29,212 nt of DNA from positions 1 through 29,212 of IMG/VR virus record IMGVR_UViG_3300040856_000413; one strand, written 5' to 3'. This DNA is from a virus. Shown one piece after another: positions 4,435 to 19,712 of the stretch. Each line of letters begins with the position of its first letter. Within the stretch, counting starts at the first letter, position 1. Below the pieces are notes generated by a model. That model was not told the origin of the DNA and ran no database searches. It saw nothing but the letters and a program-made list of their open reading frames with translations. The position numbers were made by a program, and so were the translations under genes.

Positions 4435-4637
4435 TGGGATTTAGTCCAAGGATGTATGAAATACACGTTTTCCTTGAAGGAGAAAACGGAGTATGGTGGT
4501 GGGAGCATATTGATACTCTTGCTGACTTAACAGAAGCATCCGAATGGTATAATAGGTACAAAGATACAAACATGAGTGTTCGTATTATCGAAACTAAAAT
4601 AGTAAAGGCTTTTGAAGATGGAAAGGAATACACATAA
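4434..4637 (+). CDS. Trp-rich small protein, unknown function
   Basis: The protein of 67 residues starts by TAATG coupling to the previous gene with AAGGAG upstream. An in-frame ATG at 4452 (MYEIHVFLEG) is an alternative start, but its ribosome binding site is weaker. It contains a VWWWEHIDTLADL segment and is likely a small alpha/beta fold. No family was recognised. The next gene begins at its stop codon. Confidence 0.65.
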   Translation: MGFSPRMYEIHVFLEGENGVWWWEHIDTLADLTEASEWYNRYKDTNMSVRIIETKIVKAFEDGKEYT

Positions 4638-4816
4638 TGAATGTAGTATGGATATTGATTTGGTTTGTTGTTGTACCAGAAAACGGGGTTAGATACTATC
4701 ACCTTGGTACATACGACAATGAAACATTATGCAATGTTGGCCTAAGAGATGCTTCAGTGATGGTCAACGATAAAAATGAAACAATAGAATGTATCGGAGT
4801 AAAAATTGATGGCTAA
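4637..4816 (+). CDS. Small protein with N-terminal membrane or signal segment
   Basis: A 59-residue frame coupled by TAATG at 4637. The N-terminus [17 protein letters not shown] is a hydrophobic helix. The rest is polar, with two Cys (CNVGL and ECIGV) that could form a disulfide if the domain lies in the periplasm. No Lys or Arg precedes the hydrophobic stretch, so it is not a typical signal peptide. No family was recognised. Exact coupling on both sides supports it being real. Confidence 0.6.
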
Positions 4817-5027
4817 ACTGTATGACTTAGAACCAATGATACTGGACTGCTGGCATGTATGCAATGACCTACAGGTAGTGTTCAGACAGATAGGTGACGG
4901 TGAACGTGAGCCTACCCATGATGAGATGATGAACACCTTAATGGGTATGCAACAACTATACGAGTGGAAGTTTGAGCAGTTGTTTAACAAGTATGAAGAT
5001 GTATTTAAAGCGCAGAGAGAGGAATAG
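4809..5027 (+). CDS. Small helical protein, unknown function
   Basis: A 72-residue, mostly helical protein ([20 protein letters not shown]...). ATG 4809 with upstream GGAG was chosen over the TTG one codon earlier. It overlaps the end of the preceding gene by eight bases. Acidic, with a Met-rich helix [20 protein letters not shown]. No family was recognised. Confidence 0.7.
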
Positions 5028-5769: not shown

Positions 5770-6333
5770 ATGTATACCCGTGATGTAAAGCTAATTAAAG
5801 ACTACGTATTAAACAGAGGGCCAGAGGGGGTGGTAGATGTGTTTAGCACAGTTATTGCTTCTATTCGTACAGGGTTCAAAGATCTAACTAATCTGTCAAA
5901 TGACATCCGGATTAATAAACATCAATCAAAGGCTCTTTGGGGCCATAAAATTGATAGTTACTCAGGAGTTGTAGAGCTTAAAGACGAGCTTTATTCAATG
6001 TTTGAAGAGAGCGCTTCACAACAAAAAATGCTTAATACAGTACTGAGTATAAAAGGGCTAGGGCTAGCAAAGGCTAGTTTTGGATTACAAATGCTAGGTT
6101 ATAATCTGGCTTGCCTCGACACTCATAACTTAAAACGACTTGGGTATTCTAGCTCTTATTTTAATAACAAAAAGAGAGTGGAAGAATATGTAAGTGTTGT
6201 ACAACAAAAAGGAACAGAATACTGGTGGAATACTTGGTGTGAGTTAATCCCACAAACAACTGTTAACAAGAAACACTTCAAAACAGCAGAGGAAGTTTCT
6301 TATGAACACGTAATAGCAGTAAGAGGGGATTAA
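5770..6333 (+). CDS. HhH-GPD-like protein related to base-excision DNA glycosylases
   Basis: A protein of 187 residues with a helix-hairpin-helix at IKGLGLAKASFGLQMLG (94-110), then ACLDTHNLKRLG. In HhH-GPD glycosylases such as EndoIII, an Asp at this place (here Asp117) activates catalysis. The segment resembles phage proteins labelled as base-excision repair enzymes. No Cys cluster for an iron-sulfur centre is present. It is shorter than full glycosylases (about 210 or more), so it may be a reduced enzyme or only a DNA-binding relative. It starts one base after the GIY-YIG gene, and the pair may act together on DNA. Confidence 0.6.
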   Translation: MYTRDVKLIKDYVLNRGPEGVVDVFSTVIASIRTGFKDLTNLSNDIRINKHQSKALWGHKIDSYSGVVELKDELYSMFEESASQQKMLNTVLSIKGLGLAKASFGLQMLGYNLACLDTHNLKRLGYSSSYFNNKKRVEEYVSVVQQKGTEYWWNTWCELIPQTTVNKKHFKTAEEVSYEHVIAVRGD

Positions 6334-6334
6334 C

Positions 6335-6721
6335 ATGAAAGTAGCAGCCTACTATAATCTCCATAAAAATACATTCTCTTTACAGTCACGTAACAAAGAG
6401 GACTACGGTAAAGTGATTAAACACACTGACCATGTAATCTTGAAGAACGCAAAGTTTACAGTAAGAAGTGCTGGTAGACAAAAAGTTCTAAATGAGAATA
6501 AGAAGAACGTTCATGCTTTTGTTGTGGGCGAAGTCGTAGAAGGACTAGGTCCACAGAGGGCCACAGAGAAACACGTAAGGTACAACCCATATCGTGGCGA
6601 TCGATTTACACGAACAGATACAGGAGAGGCTGTCTCTGTGGCAGACTATGTCATTCTCCGTAAAGGGGCCGACGATAAACCAATTATAGGAGCTTACTTA
6701 GAATGGGACGAGAAAGACTGA
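6335..6721 (+). CDS. Conserved phage protein of unknown function
   Basis: 128 residues, starting MKVAAYYNLHKNTFSLQSRN. The combination of an N-terminal YYNLHKNTFS, a middle AGRQKVLNENKKNVHAFVVGE and a later YNPYRGDRF is one I recognise from many lytic phage proteins annotated only as hypothetical. Its basic and aromatic residues fit a small nucleic-acid or nucleotide binding fold, but there is no direct evidence. It starts one base after the HhH-GPD stop. Confidence 0.75.
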   Translation: MKVAAYYNLHKNTFSLQSRNKEDYGKVIKHTDHVILKNAKFTVRSAGRQKVLNENKKNVHAFVVGEVVEGLGPQRATEKHVRYNPYRGDRFTRTDTGEAVSVADYVILRKGADDKPIIGAYLEWDEKD

Positions 6722-6897
6722 ACGATTGGAAACTAATAGAAGACTTGTTTGAGGAGAGGGCTGCGATATTAGAGTATGATGCAGGTTATACTCGTTATGC
6801 CGCAGAACAATCCGCAGCTCAACAGATGGGCTATGCAAACAAAGCTGACTTAAAAATACATATCCAAAAAATAAAGGCAGAAATAGTCAATGGGTAA
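6703..6897 (+). CDS. Small helical protein, unknown function
   Basis: A 64-residue helical protein overlapping the previous gene by 19 bases (start ATG 6703, GGAG about ten bases before). Charged helices (ERAAILEYDAGYTRYAAEQS) and a basic C-terminal helix suggest a coiled-coil or small DNA-associated protein. No family was recognised. Confidence 0.6.
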   Translation: MGRERLNDWKLIEDLFEERAAILEYDAGYTRYAAEQSAAQQMGYANKADLKIHIQKIKAEIVNG

Positions 6898-7609
6898 ATT
6901 CATCTATAGAGTATACAAATCACCATCTTCAACTATTCTAGAATACGAGGTTGATAGCTGGCAACAAGCAATAGATATCTGGTCAAACTTAAAACAATCA
7001 GGTAATTCACCGTACATAAGCTGTATAGGTGAGGAACGCAGCATGATTGTAAATAGTCAATCAGGTATACGGGAGTGGAGTGATTATCTACTAGTGAACA
7101 ATTACAATCGAGTGGAGCGGAGAATTATGTTGGATATGCAAGATCAGGAGATGAACGGTATGAAAGTAGTAGAAGTAAAAGAAACAGGTAATTTCGGGTA
7201 TAGCGCTTATCTAGAGCGGGAAGCCGAGGCCGAGTATCAGGCTTTAGTTAAAGAATCAAATTACACAGTAGCAGAAGAGTGTGAAAAGAAAAAAGCAATA
7301 GACTTTCACGGCAACTTCAGTAGGATGGATCAATCATCTCAAGATGAAATTATTAATCCGAAGCACTATAAGATGATTCCAAAAGAAGCTTATGATCGAT
7401 TCCCCGAGGGGCTAGAATATATGGATCTTATGGAGTATATCTTAGATAGCCATAGCGGTGTTAACTCACATCTATTGGGTCAAATCTTTAAGTATTCTTG
7501 CCGACTAGGTAAGAAGGATGCTGACCTTCAAGACGCCCGTAAGATCGAGTGGTATGCCTCTCGTCTTGTTAAATCCCTAGAGCATCAACTCATTGGCGGA
7601 GAGTTTTAA
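6890..7609 (+). CDS. DUF3310 domain protein (T7 gp1.7-related C-terminus)
   Basis: The 239-residue protein has two parts. Residues 1-150 are unrecognised and may be phage-specific. Residues 153-230 match the DUF3310 pattern: INPKHYKMIP, then YMDLMEYIL, a QIFKYSCRLGKKD core and a QDARKIEWYASRLVK helix. I recall that this family includes T7 gp1.7, reported as a nucleotide kinase. Whether that activity applies to this longer protein is unknown. It overlaps the genes on both sides by a few bases, and its neighbours include other nucleotide-related genes. Confidence 0.7.
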   Translation: MGKFIYRVYKSPSSTILEYEVDSWQQAIDIWSNLKQSGNSPYISCIGEERSMIVNSQSGIREWSDYLLVNNYNRVERRIMLDMQDQEMNGMKVVEVKETGNFGYSAYLEREAEAEYQALVKESNYTVAEECEKKKAIDFHGNFSRMDQSSQDEIINPKHYKMIPKEAYDRFPEGLEYMDLMEYILDSHSGVNSHLLGQIFKYSCRLGKKDADLQDARKIEWYASRLVKSLEHQLIGGEF

Positions 7610-7854
7610 TGAGTGTGTCTGGCTGGTATGAAGGGGAATACAACATTATTAACTTCCATTACGATAATGTAAAAGACCCAACACATCTTGCACAGCTATT
7701 GCTAAATCAGTTTGGTAAAGATTGCGTAGGTGTTGATCTAGAGGTTTCAGGTGAATATTCAGATGGATCCGATGCAGAAGACAACTTAGAAAAGTTGTTT
7801 GATGTATTAGATCCGCCTGAGTGGCCTGACTTTGTAGAAGGAGAATTAGTATGA
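7609..7854 (+). CDS. Acidic 81-residue protein, unknown function
   Basis: Begins MSVSGWYEGEYNIINFHYDN at a TAATG junction. Strongly acidic C-terminus (LDPPEWPDFVEGELV). It could be a small DNA-mimic or regulator, but no family was recognised and no motif points to a function. It overlaps the next gene by four bases (ATGA). Confidence 0.65.
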   Translation: MSVSGWYEGEYNIINFHYDNVKDPTHLAQLLLNQFGKDCVGVDLEVSGEYSDGSDAEDNLEKLFDVLDPPEWPDFVEGELV

Positions 7855-8066
7855 TAACCCAAGAAGATATTGATGCTATGGGCTATACCCCAAGCGATTT
7901 TGAAGCAGTAAGGAAAGATGTTGAACGGGCTTTGCATGAAGTTCAATCAGCTAAACATTGGCTAGACGAGACCGGAGACTATAATTCTGAACGGTTAAAC
8001 GATGCTTATGACAATATAAAGATGGCTGAACGACAACTATTAAGAGTATTATCGGAGGTAAACTAA
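7851..8066 (+). CDS. Helical 71-residue protein, unknown function
   Basis: Begins MITQEDIDAMGYTPSDFE and continues as two long amphipathic helices (ERALHEVQSAKHWLDETG and AYDNIKMAERQLLRVLSE), so a helical hairpin or coiled coil is likely. ATGA overlap upstream and TAATG junction downstream. No family was recognised. Confidence 0.65.
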   Translation: MITQEDIDAMGYTPSDFEAVRKDVERALHEVQSAKHWLDETGDYNSERLNDAYDNIKMAERQLLRVLSEVN

Positions 8067-8233
8067 TGAAACTGTCACCTGATTCCCGTGTTATTCGTAA
8101 ACTTGCTGAGTCTCTTCGAGAAAGAGACTTAGAATTAAACATTCATCGTGCCATCCACCAAGCCGCTATGGCACTGGATTTAGTACGTGATGCAGAATAC
8201 CGAGTACAAGACGAATACTTAGATCAACAATAA
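8066..8233 (+). CDS. 55-residue helical protein, unknown function
   Basis: A small frame starting at the TAATG junction with the previous gene (GGAGG upstream). The protein (MKLSPDSRVIRKLAESLRER...) is Arg-rich in the first half, acidic at the end and almost wholly helical. Exact coupling and a good ribosome binding site support it. No family was recognised. Confidence 0.6.
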   Translation: MKLSPDSRVIRKLAESLRERDLELNIHRAIHQAAMALDLVRDAEYRVQDEYLDQQ

Positions 8234-8248
8234 ATAGGAGAATATACT

Positions 8249-8713
8249 ATGCCAAATTGGTGTATGAATAGCGTACAAATTTCTGGGGACAAAGAAACTC
8301 TAGAGAAAATTAAAACAGCCGCAGATAATGACGAACTGCTTAATTTCTTAGCCCCCTTGGGACAGGATTGGGATTATCGTGCGGCGGTAGACACTTGGGG
8401 GACTAAGTGGGACGTAAGGGAATGTTATTGTGACTGGGATGGTGAGGACACTCTTCAGCTTAGTTTCGATACTGCTTGGGGGCCACCCTTAACAGCTTAT
8501 GACACAGCAGAGTCCACATTAAACTTAGACATCACAGCAAGCTTCTACGAGCCTGGAATGTGTTTTGTAGGTGATCGAGATGATAGCTGGGAGTTTGACT
8601 TTGAGGATGAAGACTGGGCGGATGGTATCCCCCAAGAACTAATTGATGATTGGGCTCTAGACGATGAATATGACAATTGGAAACAGTGGCAAGAAGAAGA
8701 AGAAATGGAGTAA
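8249..8713 (+). CDS. Api92/YubB-like (DUF1281-type) protein
   Basis: A 154-residue protein with the N-terminal signature MPNWCMNSVQISG, followed by NFLAPLGQDWDYRAAVDTWGTKWD and an AWGPPLTAYD segment. This arrangement is that of the Api92-like / DUF1281 family found in phages and plasmids, with a ferredoxin-like fold and unknown function. The C-terminus is extremely acidic (runs of Asp, Glu and Trp), which could mimic DNA charge. It is separated from the DNA polymerase gene by only two bases. Confidence 0.7.
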   Translation: MPNWCMNSVQISGDKETLEKIKTAADNDELLNFLAPLGQDWDYRAAVDTWGTKWDVRECYCDWDGEDTLQLSFDTAWGPPLTAYDTAESTLNLDITASFYEPGMCFVGDRDDSWEFDFEDEDWADGIPQELIDDWALDDEYDNWKQWQEEEEME

Positions 8714-11268: not shown

Positions 11269-11489
11269 TGTTTACTGTCGAACACGAAGACGCCTATACA
11301 ATTGTAACCACCTTAGATCAGACAGGGTTGTATTCAGATGTTGAGGTCATTTTAGACGAGACTGATGTTGTTCTACGACAATTCAACGAGGATACAAAGT
11401 GTTATGATCTAATTAATCTTTCCCATCAACAATTCAGAGACATAATTGCGTCTCTATCAAAAGCTGAAGGAGCATACTATGCAAGCTAA
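11268..11489 (+). CDS. 73-residue protein, unknown function
   Basis: Begins MFTVEHEDAYTIVTTLDQTG at a TAATG junction. The alternation of hydrophobic and polar residues suggests a small beta sheet with a C-terminal helix. It overlaps the MazG-like gene by 11 bases. No family was recognised. Confidence 0.65.
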   Translation: MFTVEHEDAYTIVTTLDQTGLYSDVEVILDETDVVLRQFNEDTKCYDLINLSHQQFRDIIASLSKAEGAYYAS

Positions 11490-11754
11490 CTTATATGAAA
11501 CTATCGCTTTACAATTTTTTAAACCCGAGCATCGGCATCATAATGACTTAGCCACGGGTCTTCGTGAAGAAGCCGAAGAAGTAGAAGATGCAACCCAAAT
11601 GGGAACACGATCTCAAATCTTGGATGAGCTAGGTGATGTTCTTTGGTATGTTACTATTATGGCAAGTAATGAGGGTAGTAGCCTGTCTGAGATTATGAAG
11701 ATCAATTATGAAAAACTTGAAGCACGAGCAATTAACGGAAAGGTCAAGCCATGA
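11479..11754 (+). CDS. MazG-like nucleotide pyrophosphohydrolase
   Basis: The 91-residue protein has the metal-binding pattern of the MazG/dUTPase-like all-alpha superfamily: REEAEEVEDA (an EExxE helix) and ILDELGDVLWYV (an ExxD helix). Such enzymes convert NTPs or dNTPs to monophosphates. Phage versions are thought to remove unwanted nucleotides or to alter the alarmone-linked starvation state of the host; either is possible here. AAGGAG precedes ATG 11479. It lies at the end of the second block next to a membrane protein gene. Confidence 0.75.
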   Translation: MQANLYETIALQFFKPEHRHHNDLATGLREEAEEVEDATQMGTRSQILDELGDVLWYVTIMASNEGSSLSEIMKINYEKLEARAINGKVKP

Positions 11755-15618: not shown

Positions 15619-17490
15619 ATGAACGCTTACGAATCATTCATCCACTTGTCACGCTACTCACGTTATCTAGAGGCCGAAGGTCGTCGTGAAACTTGGGAAG
15701 AGACTGTAGACCGATTGATTGGTTTTTGGAAAAAGCAAGTTAGTAATAATGTTATTACTGATAACGAGTTTCAACAACTGTCAACCGCCGTTTATAACCG
15801 TGAGGTAATGCCTAGCATGAGAGCCATGTGGGCAGCTGGTGACGCTCTTGCACAAAACCCGTTCCGTGGTTATAACTGTAGTTTTGCTGCAGTAGACCAT
15901 ATCCGTGTATTTGACGAAATCCTATATATCCTGATGTCAGGAACTGGTGTCGGCTTTTCTGCCGAGGCCCAATATGTAAACAAACTACCTATCATTAACG
16001 ACACCTTCTCACAAAGTGAACGCACCATTTCGATTGAAGACAGCGCTGAAGGTTGGGCTAAGGCCCTCCGTAAACTTATTGCTGAACTATATCTTGGTAA
16101 CACACATGCTTGGGACTTCTCTAAGATTCGCCCTGAAGGTGCCCGTCTTAAAACTATGGGTGGTCGGGCTTCTGGTCCCGCTCCTTTACAAGACTTAATG
16201 AGCTTTGTCACTGCTACGTTTAAGGCAGCAGCTGGACGTAAGCTTCGTCCAATCGAAGTACATGACATTGTGTGTAAGATTGCTGAAGTAGTTGTAGTTG
16301 GCGGTGTACGCCGCTCTGCTCTTATTTCACTCTCTGATCTTGGTGATCCCGAAGTACGGGATGCTAAGTCCGGTCGTTGGTGGGAAACCGCTGCTCACCG
16401 TGCCTTAGCTAATAACTCTGCAGCCTATGAGCAAAAGCCCTCTATGGCTGTGTTTATGGATGAGTGGATTGCTCTTATGAAGTCAGGCTCTGGTGAGCGT
16501 GGCATATTTAACCGAGCCGGGGCTAAAGCTCTTGCCCCTGAACGCCGTAACTCAGAACCTTTAGTTGGGACTAATCCTTGCGCAGAGATTCAACTACGCT
16601 CTGGACAACTATGCAACCTGTCAGAGGTTGTATGTCGTGTAGAAGATACAGAAGAAGATCTTAAGCGTAAGATTGGTCTAGCAACTATTCTTGGTACGCT
16701 ACAAGCTTCTCTCACTGAATTCAAATATGTCCGTAAAGTATGGCAAAAGAATTGTGAAGAAGAGCGGTTGTTAGGCGTATCTTTGACTGGTATCCAAGAC
16801 TGTAAGATCTTACGTAATCCTGACCCTAAGATGCTAGAAAGGCTCAAGGCACATGCCCAAGAAGTTAATATTGAATACGCCAAAAAGCTCAACATCAACC
16901 CAGCTACCGCTATCACTACAATTAAGCCTTCTGGCACGGTCTCTCAGCTTGTTGACTCTAGCTCTGGTATTCATGGGCGCTTTAGCCCCTATTACATTCG
17001 AACTGTAAGACAGGCTAATAACGATCCCTTAACTTCTTTCCTGAAGGACTCAGGAGTACCTAATGAGGCAGACTTGATGAACCCTGAGAAGACAACTATC
17101 TTTTCTTTCCCGATCAAGTCCCCAGAAGGTGCTACACTAGCTAACGAACAGACAGCTATTGAACAGCTAGAAAATTGGCTTCTATTCCAGAAACACTGGT
17201 CAGAACACTCGGTAAGTGTTACTGTCTATGTTAAGGAACATGAGTGGATGGAAGTAGGTAATTGGTGCTATCAGAACTTTGACTATATTACTGGTGTTAG
17301 CTTCTTGCCTTATGCTGAACATACTTATGCACAGGCACCTTATCAGCCTTGCACTAAGGTTGAATTCCTTGCAGCAATAGCGGCTATGCCAAAGGTTGAC
17401 TTTTCTAAGTTAACTGATTACGAGTCAGAAGACAACACTGAAGGAGCACAGACACTAGCTTGTACAGGCGGTGCTTGTGAAATTTTGTGA
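15619..17490 (+). CDS. nrdJ: Adenosylcobalamin-dependent monomeric ribonucleotide reductase (class II)
   Basis: The 623-residue enzyme reduces ribonucleotides to deoxyribonucleotides, using vitamin B12 to make the radical. Residues match the Lactobacillus leichmannii reductase in order and spacing: Cys87 (GYNCSF), NPCAE with Cys321 and Glu323, Cys332 eleven residues later, and a C-terminal pair Cys615/Cys620 five apart (CTGGAC) that is re-reduced by a thiol protein. It is shorter than the Lactobacillus enzyme (739), partly from a shorter Cys87-Cys321 spacing. The phage needs B12 from the host. The glutaredoxin at 18410 is a likely reductant. It uses ATG 15619 after AAAGGAAA. Confidence 0.95.
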   Translation: MNAYESFIHLSRYSRYLEAEGRRETWEETVDRLIGFWKKQVSNNVITDNEFQQLSTAVYNREVMPSMRAMWAAGDALAQNPFRGYNCSFAAVDHIRVFDEILYILMSGTGVGFSAEAQYVNKLPIINDTFSQSERTISIEDSAEGWAKALRKLIAELYLGNTHAWDFSKIRPEGARLKTMGGRASGPAPLQDLMSFVTATFKAAAGRKLRPIEVHDIVCKIAEVVVVGGVRRSALISLSDLGDPEVRDAKSGRWWETAAHRALANNSAAYEQKPSMAVFMDEWIALMKSGSGERGIFNRAGAKALAPERRNSEPLVGTNPCAEIQLRSGQLCNLSEVVCRVEDTEEDLKRKIGLATILGTLQASLTEFKYVRKVWQKNCEEERLLGVSLTGIQDCKILRNPDPKMLERLKAHAQEVNIEYAKKLNINPATAITTIKPSGTVSQLVDSSSGIHGRFSPYYIRTVRQANNDPLTSFLKDSGVPNEADLMNPEKTTIFSFPIKSPEGATLANEQTAIEQLENWLLFQKHWSEHSVSVTVYVKEHEWMEVGNWCYQNFDYITGVSFLPYAEHTYAQAPYQPCTKVEFLAAIAAMPKVDFSKLTDYESEDNTEGAQTLACTGGACEIL

Positions 17491-17681
17491 GGTCTAAGAA
17501 CTTCTGGAAAGTTAAGATAAGTTCTCCTTGTAAAAAGGAGTGTCATATAAAGGGGGTCTGCTGCACAAGTTGTGGCAGACATCTTGACGATATCCGAATG
17601 TGGTTAACTTATTCAGAAGAAGAGAGGCTTAGTATTATGAAAAAACTAGAGAAAAGTTTTAAAGAAGACAACAAAAGTTAA
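17487..17681 (+). CDS. DUF1289-type Cys-rich small protein
   Basis: 64 residues starting at GTG 17487, whose last bases overlap the reductase stop (GTGA). It contains SPCKKECHIKGVCCTSCGRH then LDDIRMWLTYSEEERLSIMK, the order of the DUF1289 family (a CxxxC...CxxC metal site, a W, an S-EER helix). These proteins occur in many proteobacteria and their role is unknown. Coupling to the reductase suggests a redox or metal-related role. The site likely binds zinc or an iron-sulfur cluster. Confidence 0.75.
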   Translation: MRSKNFWKVKISSPCKKECHIKGVCCTSCGRHLDDIRMWLTYSEEERLSIMKKLEKSFKEDNKS

Positions 17682-17693
17682 AGGAGAGAGTAA

Positions 17694-17813
17694 ATGGCTA
17701 AAATGCTAGGAGTGACAGTGGGATTCGTTGTAGGAATGCTAATTAGGTTCTCATTGTTTACGGGTGCTGTATGGGCATCTATAGTAATATTGAACAGTCT
17801 TGGGCTTTTGTAA
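17694..17813 (+). CDS. 39-residue membrane peptide
   Basis: An exact frame from ATG 17694 with AAGGAGAGAG upstream. The peptide (MAKMLGVTVGFVVGMLIRFS...) is almost wholly hydrophobic, with one Arg in the middle, so one bent or two short transmembrane segments are possible. Its stop overlaps the next ATG (TAATG). No family was recognised. Confidence 0.6.
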   Translation: MAKMLGVTVGFVVGMLIRFSLFTGAVWASIVILNSLGLL

Positions 17814-18064
17814 TGCCAGATAATGTAATAGAGTTCAATAAAGCTATAAAATCTAAAGAGCAATTAAAAGAGACAGACGTAGAAGATGAACTTTTCGATA
17901 TACTAGACTCTCTTTTAGATCATGTAGAAGATGTAGTTGATCATGGGATAGTTATTCTTGTTAAAGATAATAAGCTATTGTCGGGATCTACTCAACTACA
18001 CAACGCACAAATAACAGAAATGCTAGAACTCACTATGAAAGATTTACAAGGAGTAGAAGAATGA
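17813..18064 (+). CDS. 83-residue acidic protein, unknown function
   Basis: ATG 17813 was chosen because it overlaps the previous stop (TAATG); an upstream extension from 17771 lies inside the membrane peptide gene. The protein (MPDNVIEFNKAIKSKEQLKE...) has an acidic helix DVEDELFDILDSLLDHVEDV, a short beta segment and a C-terminal helix. No family was recognised. It overlaps the DUF1127 gene by four bases. Confidence 0.65.
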   Translation: MPDNVIEFNKAIKSKEQLKETDVEDELFDILDSLLDHVEDVVDHGIVILVKDNKLLSGSTQLHNAQITEMLELTMKDLQGVEE

Positions 18065-18240
18065 GTTGGTTTTGGAGATATGTAAACTATTTAGCCACTT
18101 GGCGTGATCACCGAGAGGCCGTAAAGCAACTTAATAAGCTAAGTGATAAACAACTAAAAGACATCGGCATTAATCGTTCAGATATTGATCGCTTAGTTTG
18201 GTTGCCAGAAGATAAGACAATGAGAGGTCGTGGAGAATGA
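18061..18240 (+). CDS. DUF1127 family protein
   Basis: A 59-residue protein whose core WRDHREAVKQLNKLSDKQLK (14-33) followed by DIGINRSDIDRLV is the DUF1127 pattern. The family is small and Arg-rich and is widespread in Alphaproteobacteria, where members are linked to stress responses and RNA maturation or turnover (for example CcaF1 in Rhodobacter, from memory). A phage copy may redirect host RNA metabolism or regulation, and it hints at the host group. ATGA overlaps on both sides show that it is a fixed part of the operon. Confidence 0.8.
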   Translation: MSWFWRYVNYLATWRDHREAVKQLNKLSDKQLKDIGINRSDIDRLVWLPEDKTMRGRGE

Positions 18241-18410
18241 GTGAAGCATTAATTGAAACAGAAGTTGAAGAGCTTGTGGAAGCAGTGTTCGATGAGTTTA
18301 TTGCTGAGTATGAGTTAGATCCAGAAGGTTCTATTAACGATATGTTCTATGAGCTATTCCTCGCTGGGTTCGAAGCAGCTATTAATATGGTGAATGAAGA
18401 GGAAGAGTAA
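18237..18410 (+). CDS. Acidic 57-residue protein, unknown function
   Basis: A very acidic helical peptide (MSEALIETEVEELVEAVFDE..., ending in NEEEE). It overlaps the DUF1127 gene by four bases and meets the glutaredoxin gene at TAATG. With the strongly basic DUF1127 protein before it, a paired acidic partner is possible, but this is inference. No family was recognised. Confidence 0.6.
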   Translation: MSEALIETEVEELVEAVFDEFIAEYELDPEGSINDMFYELFLAGFEAAINMVNEEEE

Positions 18411-18652
18411 TGTATCTTGTTGTTGGAAGAAAGAATTGCTCTTACTGCGACAAGGCTAAGGAGGCTTTAGAAACAAAAGGAACTCCTTACGTTTACGTTG
18501 ATATTACCTCTGGTGATAGTATTACTGATGCTGTATGGAAAAATTTCTTAGTAGAGGACTTAGAGGCTAGAACAGTACCTCAAATATTCCGTCTACTCGG
18601 AGGTTATGATGACTTAAGATTGGAGCTACTTCATGTCCCAAACAAAGAATGA
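18410..18652 (+). CDS. Glutaredoxin
   Basis: The 80-residue protein has the glutaredoxin active site CSYC (10-13), a YVYVDI strand and a TVPQIF cis-Pro loop, all in the normal order. It would pass electrons from glutathione to protein disulfides, most likely to the C-terminal cysteines of the class II ribonucleotide reductase encoded in the same block. Its length is typical. The next gene overlaps its end by 20 bases. Confidence 0.9.
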   Translation: MYLVVGRKNCSYCDKAKEALETKGTPYVYVDITSGDSITDAVWKNFLVEDLEARTVPQIFRLLGGYDDLRLELLHVPNKE

Positions 18653-19085
18653 TAAAGAGCCTAAACGAGGTCGAGGTAGACCTGCTGGTTCTACTGACGC
18701 TCCTAAACGGGTTAAGAAAATTAAACTTAAACCTAGACCTGAGACTGCTAAACAAGATTACAAAAAGAAATACGGTGATCTTGGATTTACAGCCATCTAT
18801 GGGTTTGATGAATTTACAGAAGAGTTGGTAAAGTACTTATGGAAAAATCCCACCCATGAGTTTATTGCTACTGACCCTATTGAACAAAAGTTATCTAACT
18901 TTAATAGAAGCATTGGTAGTTTACCTTGGAGTATCTATCGATGGGAGATAGTCCACCATGTAGGTTTCATTGAAGAGGGGCAGTTTCCTGTTGTTGTAGT
19001 TGCAGAAGAGTATTGGGATAGTGTATCTAAGCTTCCTAATCCTCATAAGGTTAAACTACTATGTCTGAGTCACTGGGAAAAATAA
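18633..19085 (+). CDS. AT-hook-bearing protein, unknown function
   Basis: 150 residues. The N-terminus has an AT-hook-like core KRGRGRPAGS (11-20), followed by a basic linker, consistent with minor-groove binding in A/T-rich DNA. The rest (AIYGFDEFTEELVKYLWKNP, and a SIGSLPWSIYRWEIVHHVGF segment) is a mixed fold I do not recognise. ATG 18633 lies inside the glutaredoxin gene with GGAG upstream. It could be a regulator or structural DNA-binding factor. Confidence 0.6.
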   Translation: MSQTKNDKEPKRGRGRPAGSTDAPKRVKKIKLKPRPETAKQDYKKKYGDLGFTAIYGFDEFTEELVKYLWKNPTHEFIATDPIEQKLSNFNRSIGSLPWSIYRWEIVHHVGFIEEGQFPVVVVAEEYWDSVSKLPNPHKVKLLCLSHWEK

Positions 19086-19124
19086 CTAAATATAAAAATG
19101 TTTACGATATAAAGGAAGCATGAA

Positions 19125-19235
19125 ATGAAAATGAATAACAAAGTTAACGAGCTCTTTACTTATGTGGTAGAGAATAAAAAGTCAATTATTGTCGGTGTGG
19201 TTATTGGACTCGTCCTAGCTACTCTGGCAACTTAA
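19125..19235 (+). CDS. 36-residue membrane peptide
   Basis: A short frame with AAAGGAAG before ATG 19125; a second ATG lies two codons on. MKMNNKVNELFTYVVENKKS is polar and the rest (IIVGVVIGLVLATLAT) is one transmembrane helix. It is the last gene before the strong terminator. A lysis accessory role or pure chance cannot be separated. Confidence 0.55.
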   Translation: MKMNNKVNELFTYVVENKKSIIVGVVIGLVLATLAT

Positions 19236-19243
19236 ATAGTTTT

Positions 19244-19320
19244 CCTCTCAGCATCTCTGCTACTGTCCTTATGGATGGTGGTGGGGGTGCTGGGAGGAAT
19301 CCTTATTTTTTTTTTTTTTT
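19244..19320 (+). terminator. Strong rho-independent terminator with 15-T tract
   Basis: CCTCTCAGCATCTC (19244-19257) pairs with the region ending GGGGTGCTGGGAGG (about 19284-19297), giving a 14-bp stem with three G-U pairs around a loop of about 26 bases. It is followed by AATCCTTA and then 15 T (19306-19320). It would end the replication and metabolism transcripts just before promoter P3. The gap of eight bases between stem and T run is a little longer than ideal. Confidence 0.8.
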
Positions 19321-19340
19321 GATAAAAACATAGACAATAT

Positions 19341-19359
19341 AAATACCCGCAAATAATGA
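19341..19359 (+). promoter_or_regulatory. Phage RNA polymerase promoter candidate P3 (late)
   Basis: Third exact copy of AAATACCCGCAAATAATGA, with predicted +1 at G19358. It sits 21 bases after the T tract of the terminator and upstream of the terminase small-subunit candidate and virion genes, so it is the expected late promoter. The leader to the first ATG is about 355 bases, far longer than at P1 or P2. Confidence 0.8.
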
Positions 19360-19369
19360 TAAGAACTCC

Positions 19370-19414
19370 GGGGGGATTCTTACGAAGGGGGGTTGGGGGG
19401 TAGTCATGTCGGGG
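19370..19414 (+). other. G-quadruplex-prone tract in the late leader
   Basis: Four G runs on the + strand, of 6, 6, 6 and 4 bases (19370-19375, 19387-19392, 19395-19400, 19411-19414), separated by 11, 2 and 10 bases. This is notable in A/T-rich DNA. It begins 12 bases after the predicted P3 start, so the RNA and the non-template strand could both fold into a quadruplex. Loops of 10-11 bases are longer than the most stable type. Confidence 0.6.
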
Positions 19415-19530
19415 TTTCTGTCAGGAGCCTAACAAGCCCTTATGTTTGTGTTTTTGTTTTTGTATATAAATTATTCTCTAATTCTATGTTATCCAGGCAG
19501 GGTAATTATGATAAATAATTATGTTGGACC

Positions 19531-19593
19531 TAATAGGGACAGTTTGGAACTATTTCATAATGATAATAGGGCCAATTTGGTAATACTTTTTTG
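19531..19593 (+). repeat. Imperfect direct repeat, 33-base spacing
   Basis: TAATAGGG at 19531-19538 recurs at 19564-19571, exactly 33 bases on. The flanks are also alike (CAGTTTGGAACTATTT against CAATTTGGTAATACTTTT). Just upstream TAATTATG occurs twice (19503-19510 and 19517-19524). Spacing near three helical turns would place two bound proteins on the same face. It could be a binding site for the terminase small subunit, an origin factor or a repressor; none is shown. Confidence 0.5.
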
Positions 19594-19712
19594 AATAATT
19601 CTAAGGATTTAACTGTTAAATCTTTTGACTTGTTTTGTAGTTAAGTAATATTTTTTGTAATTTTAAATATCTAATAGTAAACAATTTTCCAGAACCTTGA
19701 AAGGAGGTCAGA

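Follow-up and report, generated by a model that had tools for sequence, protein, structure and literature searches.

DUF1127 proteins are widespread and multi-copy, and their activity is disputed, with the family regarded either as RNA binders or as kinase partners. A gene of this family embedded in a phage genome raises three questions: whether it is a genuine member, how it came to lie where it does, and what it might do during infection. The window analyzed here, a marine virus fragment, is the whole of a 29.2-kb linear virus record. Its early module lies entirely on the + strand in the order RNA polymerase, polA, mazG, exonuclease, primase/helicase, class II reductase, DUF1127 and glutaredoxin, in agreement with the original prediction of a replication operon. 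The features that bear on the argument are as follows:

11446-11754, + strand: MazG pyrophosphohydrolase (PF03819, 40 bits)
15619-17490, + strand: class II (adenosylcobalamin-dependent) ribonucleotide reductase (PHROG 367, E 1.7e-171; PF21995 RNR-II insertion domain)
17487-17681, + strand: DUF1289 protein, its start lying within the last bases of the reductase gene (PF06945, 42.8 bits)
17694-17813, + strand: 39-aa ORF, hydrophobic and membrane-protein-like by sequence, with counterparts in L002, L184, L185 and L186
17813-18064, + strand: acidic upstream protein, up97; 4-base overlap of its 3' end with the start of DUF1127
18048-18053, + strand: AAGGAG in the sequence, putative ribosome-binding site of the DUF1127 gene, 7 nt before the ATG
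18061-18240, + strand: DUF1127 gene, 59 aa, from the ATG at 18061 to the TGA ending at 18240 (Pfam match, phage homologs, dN/dS)
18237-18410, + strand: acidic 57-aa protein, dn57, without a Pfam match; 4-base overlap of its 5' end with the end of DUF1127
18410-18652, + strand: glutaredoxin (PF00462, 42.3 bits)
18633-19085, + strand: h150, a 150-aa conserved protein after glutaredoxin (comparison with homologs)

The frame of up97 is open from 17771, and the protein probably starts at ATG 17813 (83 aa) instead; divergent copies are found in L002, L184 and L186, and the gene is replaced in L003. A Pfam search found no family for dn57 (pI about 4, charge about -19), which is kept directly before glutaredoxin in the window lineage with or without DUF1127. 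The DUF1289 protein, with homologs at the equivalent place in L002, L003 and L186, adds to the cassette another small bacterial family that is uncharacterised. In cobaviruses, homologs of h150 are followed by PhoH. The approximately 630 bases at 19086-19712, between the nucleotide cassette and the structural genes, hold no convincing gene and are a possible regulatory region.

The assignment to DUF1127 was borne out by the profile search, in which PF06568 matched residues 11-43 with 45.1 bits (E 8e-12; curated cut-off, 23.3). The translation of ORF 18061-18240 is MSWFWRYVNYLATWRDHREAVKQLNKLSDKQLKDIGINRSDIDRLVWLPEDKTMRGRGE. The family core LSDxxLxDIG(I/L)xRxDI is present as LSDKQLKDIGINRSDI (residues 27-42), and a conserved phage C-terminal tail occupies residues 43-58 (DRLVWLPEDKTMRGRG). 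The arginine content is 11.9% (pI 9.6), compared with 13.6-13.8% in other members of the clade and a family mean of about 14% (PMC12501420). Membership in the family thus rests on the profile, the core motif and the composition. The AlphaFold2 model, with a mean pLDDT of only 64, places helices at residues 3-26, 29-34 and 39-46. The helical moment reaches 0.47 at residues 12-29, the best of 12 windows and a value attained by 2% of shuffles; an N-terminal amphipathic helix has been proposed for YjiS. A search of solved structures returned nothing meaningful, the matches to IcmE/DotG spanning only an 18-residue stretch. The core is also weakly SAM-like in Pfam (SAM_TNK, E 0.046, at 18121-18195 in the window; SAM_1, E 0.0057, in the L186 protein at 4628-4825), which possibly reflects a shared helical motif.

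That the ORF is a real gene follows from its pattern of substitution: the L002 protein is identical to that of the window despite differences at 37% of synonymous sites, and dN/dS has a median of 0.16 (100 unsaturated pairs; 50 distinct gene sequences). Invariant residues (R6, R18, K22, R39, R44, W47, D51 and K52) and nearly invariant ones (R55, G56 and R57) fall in both the core and the tail. We are nearly certain that the protein is a functional DUF1127 of a phage-specific lineage.

This lineage extends well beyond the window. With tblastn, 17 phage records spanned at least 80% of the protein at 66-81% identity, and they belong to Siovirus and Veravirus (Zobellviridae, Cobavirinae), to Autographiviridae and to the unclassified roseophage CRP-6; with the IMG/VR loci included, the identity of phage copies spans 66-100% along almost the full protein. 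No record examined annotates a function for this gene, and in the SIO1 RefSeq record the gene is missing from the annotation altogether. In the literature outside subscription journals and supplements, we found no paper that names DUF1127 in roseophages or describes this phage family. The usual site in these phages is between mazG and the ribonucleotide reductase gene; in CRP-118, CRP-403, CRP-4 and P12053L, the gene is joined to both by ATGA overlaps, and where it is lacking, in ICBM2 and CRP-804, mazG abuts the reductase gene (a hypothetical gene takes the mazG position in CRP-804). In the window, mazG is far from DUF1127, whereas the two are directly adjacent in cobaviruses and Autographiviridae. 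In nearly all of 80 IMG/VR loci, the tailed clade is linked to genes for mazG, reductase, glutaredoxin or phoH, and three or more phage families, as well as an unclassified phage, have clade A next to mazG, nrd, glutaredoxin or phoH. The link persists with a class I reductase (L051) and with thymidylate synthases (L059, L062). It is near certain, in our view, that DUF1127 is an accessory gene of a nucleotide-metabolism module shared and exchanged among several unrelated Roseobacter phage families.

Other DUF1127 genes occur elsewhere in phages. In another phage group (L063, L067 and L079, at about 5900-8400), a different DUF1127 lies close before the terminase genes, the terminase being confirmed in L067 and L079. 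Further distinct genes are carried by roseophages CRP-345, CRP-7, CRP-114, CRP-13 and CRP-235, as well as by Sinorhizobium phage phiM7 and Agrobacterium phage Atu_ph07, which has two copies (L087, L088, L089, L090 and L091; records W15 and W19); where inspected, they lie outside the nucleotide cassette.

As for the phage itself, its terminase (70% identical) and RNA polymerase (45%) are closest to their counterparts in the Naomviridae roseophages DSS3_VP1 and DSS3_PM1. By the sequences of these two proteins it is Naomviridae-like, but it is unlike them in its reductase, and DUF1127 is absent in both isolates. A reductase swap is seen within this one lineage, with class II in the window and class I nrdAB in the isolated relative DSS3_VP1. 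L051 has the same terminase type and keeps nrdAB, yet has DUF1127. All close isolate homologs of the DUF1127 protein come from phages of Rhodobacterales hosts. A Roseobacter-type host is a sound reading of these comparisons, because no isolate-phage homolog of comparable identity was found outside Rhodobacterales phages; the alphaproteobacterial host hinted at by the original prediction is supported, also in view of the terminase identity to DSS3 roseophages. The phage DUF1127 may serve as a marker for virus fragments that infect Rhodobacterales.

How firmly the gene belongs to its place was assessed in a survey anchored on the reductase, not on DUF1127, which drew on the best 80 matches of each scan and is not a random sample. 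To these matches four loci known from other searches were added in counting distinct window-type loci with glutaredoxin. DUF1127 was present in 37 of these 44 loci (about 84%), and 34 of the 44 showed the order DUF1127, acidic 57-aa protein, glutaredoxin. By a different criterion, with near-duplicates counted, it was present in 45/51 window-type loci (best 80 matches per scan). Among cobavirus-type loci with mazG upstream, only 13 of 69 had it (best 80 matches per scan); the gene is optional there and therefore not required for the nucleotide pathway.

As predicted, the gene is joined on both sides by ATGA four-base overlaps (upstream ORF end, 18064; downstream ORF start, 18237). A single overlap of this kind is ordinary, because 8 of the 48 junctions in the window have one (gene list of this analysis). 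Among relatives, ATGA was found at 32/44 scorable upstream junctions and at 18/39 scorable downstream junctions. In L184 (reductase 85% identical) and L187 (56%), which lack DUF1127, the flanking genes meet by the same ATGA overlap. A tail-less type (MTFREVLKKLGMW...) occupies the equivalent place in L185, L357, L364, L393 and L395, and another type (MLRSLFAIVGRW...) lies about 570 bases further upstream in L366, L369 and L390; in the 43-column tree, both types fall outside the tailed clade and closer to bacterial rows, although the support is weak. L186 combines a reductase that matches the window's at 99% identity with a DUF1127 that reaches only 69%, and in L002 a DUF1127 protein identical to that of the window has an upstream neighbor gene with just 51% identity. 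Since the gene can be absent or swapped with ATGA re-formed, the overlap is a modular junction, and long residence needs other evidence.

Clean junctions of this kind, together with the patchy distribution in cobaviruses, are what would be expected if the gene were a passenger or selfish element at an insertion-prone spot, bringing the phage no benefit. However, the low dN/dS, the invariant residues that include the phage-only tail and the high occupancy in the window lineage do not fit such an element, and the replacements are other DUF1127 proteins, not unrelated genes. We disfavor this explanation and regard it as very improbable. That other DUF1127 types occupy the position before the acidic gene and glutaredoxin argues for selection of a DUF1127 function at this slot. 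More speculatively, Roseobacter phages may keep a dedicated, translationally coupled slot in their dNTP-supply operon for the repeated swap-in of DUF1127 types, probably matched to host paralogs, which would rewire host RNA or phosphate regulation. We consider this proposal possible but rather doubtful; if true, it would, as far as we found, describe for the first time how a virus makes use of this family of regulators.

The original prediction had taken the overlaps as a sign of long residence rather than recent pick-up. The conclusion largely stands, but this argument for it does not, given that ATGA is kept without the gene in L184 and L187 and that L185 and L357 hold another type. Long residence is supported instead by the phage-only clade, by the conserved C-terminal tail, by how far the phage proteins stand from host copies and by purifying selection (dN/dS about 0.16). 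We rejected a recent capture of a host gene, as neither a genome-wide pattern scan nor 298 Rhodobacteraceae genomes yielded a close bacterial copy; the closest in those genomes scored 37 bits, with 55% identity over 38 residues, and was missing the tail. The tail motif occurred in none of 143 bacterial DUF1127 ORFs. When placed with bacterial copies in a first tree (43 columns), the tailed clade and its sister group formed a group with a single bacterial row (SH-aLRT 98), but this support was not retained in an enlarged tree. The nearest cellular row in the first tree, a weak placement on only 43 columns, was a chromosomal Amylibacter DUF1127 (L117). This Amylibacter gene adjoins a peptide ABC transporter (L117, 3920-4150).

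What, then, might the protein do? Two activities are documented for cellular DUF1127 proteins: RNA binding and turnover, for CcaF1 (PMC10253847), and PhoR binding with control of phosphate uptake (PMC12501420). CcaF1 of Rhodobacter is an RNA-binding protein that influences RNA turnover, and its overexpression hampers growth (PMC10253847). The recurrence of the phage gene beside enzymes that make DNA building blocks suggests that these viruses retune the host cell with DUF1127, and a role in host RNA metabolism is plausible by extrapolation from CcaF1. We tentatively favor a CcaF1-like RNA model because of the nucleotide-supply neighborhood, the basic charge, the RGRG tail and the growth impeded by CcaF1 overexpression. 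The phage protein would be a short, basic adaptor of helical structure that is produced along with MazG, ribonucleotide reductase and glutaredoxin, and would act in trans on host regulation, as host DUF1127 proteins do. Its arginines and tryptophans may bind host RNA, and RNase E-dependent RNA processing and turnover would be shifted as a result. Host gene expression would thereby be weakened, and the freed ribonucleotides could be turned into phage dNTPs by the neighboring enzymes; RNA binding, the host target and the gain in dNTP supply are what we infer in this model, whereas the family, the lineage, the gene order, the constraint and the replaceability of the slot are shown by the data. 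A CcsR-type partner sRNA was sought in the window, which has no exact CCTCCTCC, fewer near-matches than chance and no Rfam match. If the protein has a role in RNA metabolism, it would therefore be exerted in trans, on RNAs of the host. The missing sRNA partner and the optional status of DUF1127 in cobaviruses (13 of 69 loci) count against the RNA model. In Salmonella, moreover, YjiS was not seen to associate with RNA and tolerated the loss of any single arginine (PMC11707872). Additionally, gene neighborhood in compact phage genomes is weak evidence of a shared mechanism.

The co-occurrence with phoH and the presence of host paralogs bear on a second explanation. Here the phage protein would imitate host DUF1127, or interfere with it in a dominant-negative manner, and by way of the sensor kinase PhoR, or a similar kinase of the host, would readjust the uptake of phosphate in the infected cell. 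PhoR is bound by the DUF1127 proteins of both Agrobacterium and E. coli, and an Agrobacterium mutant can be complemented with DUF1127 proteins from Sinorhizobium, Rhodobacter or E. coli (PMC12501420, 2025). phoH was present in all six complete isolate genomes tested that carry a clade A DUF1127, and all 61 Rhodobacteraceae genomes examined have 1-11 DUF1127 genes of their own, which would be open to mimicry or titration. However, Agrobacterium DUF1127 lowers phosphate uptake, the opposite of the expected phage need unless the phage copy is dominant-negative; phoH also occurs in roseophages without DUF1127 (DSS3_VP1, ICBM2 and CRP-804), and the tail of the phage copies is absent from every bacterial copy examined. 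This explanation is a close and serious rival of the RNA model, although we rate it somewhat unlikely.

The charge of the protein (+2.6, compared with -19.4 and -14.2 for its acidic neighbors) and the recurrent order with the acidic protein and glutaredoxin (34/44 distinct loci; best 80 matches per scan plus four) would also suit a protein that assists the phage's own reductase, glutaredoxin and MazG locally, for example as a scaffold binding either the acidic neighbor or a subunit of the reductase, and in other families the gene overlaps mazG and nrd translationally. Nevertheless, DUF1127 accompanies reductases of either class (I or II) as well as thymidylate synthases, the cassettes of Autographiviridae and cobaviruses have no acidic protein beside it, most cobaviruses do without it, and cellular DUF1127 proteins are not known to serve such enzymes. 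We consider an accessory role of this kind unlikely.

Leaving function aside, what is new here is how widely an unnamed gene is spread among phages, the tail of its product, its position within the dNTP module in different phage families and the finding that DUF1127 types have been exchanged repeatedly at a single slot. A constrained phage copy in a known metabolic module, with close relatives that lack or swap it, offers a natural comparison of the domain's role. It also adds a likely host-takeover gene to the marine roseophages, whose published genome papers leave such a gene among the hypothetical proteins.

Compared with known systems, the phage copy resembles the small Agrobacterium DUF1127 proteins and E. 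coli/Salmonella YjiS (PhoR and SsrA partners; PMC12501420, PMC11707872) in family, size and predicted helices; YjiS is a membrane-associated SsrA partner with no evidence of RNA binding (PMC11707872). Those proteins are chromosomal regulators, unlike the phage copy. CcaF1 of Rhodobacter sphaeroides shares the domain with the phage protein, and both are small, basic and set in an alphaproteobacterial context, but CcaF1 has 71 aa and is co-transcribed with the CcsR sRNAs and their CCUCCU motifs, whereas the phage gene has no such motif nearby and encodes a conserved C-terminal tail. Because the sRNA partner was looked for and not found, the window locus is not a CcaF1-type CIN1 locus. The nearest counterparts are the roseophage genes of SIO1 (between mazG and nrd), P12053L (gp30), CRP-118 (gp43), CRP-403 (gp43), CRP-4 (gp23) and CRP-6 (gp26), which share with the window 66-81% identity, nucleotide-metabolism neighbors and the same kind of C-terminal tail. 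They usually occupy the interval between mazG and the reductase gene, whereas the window copy comes after the reductase, flanked on each side by an acidic gene and ahead of glutaredoxin, and, unlike the SIO1, P12053L and CRP copies, sits in a Naomviridae-like backbone.
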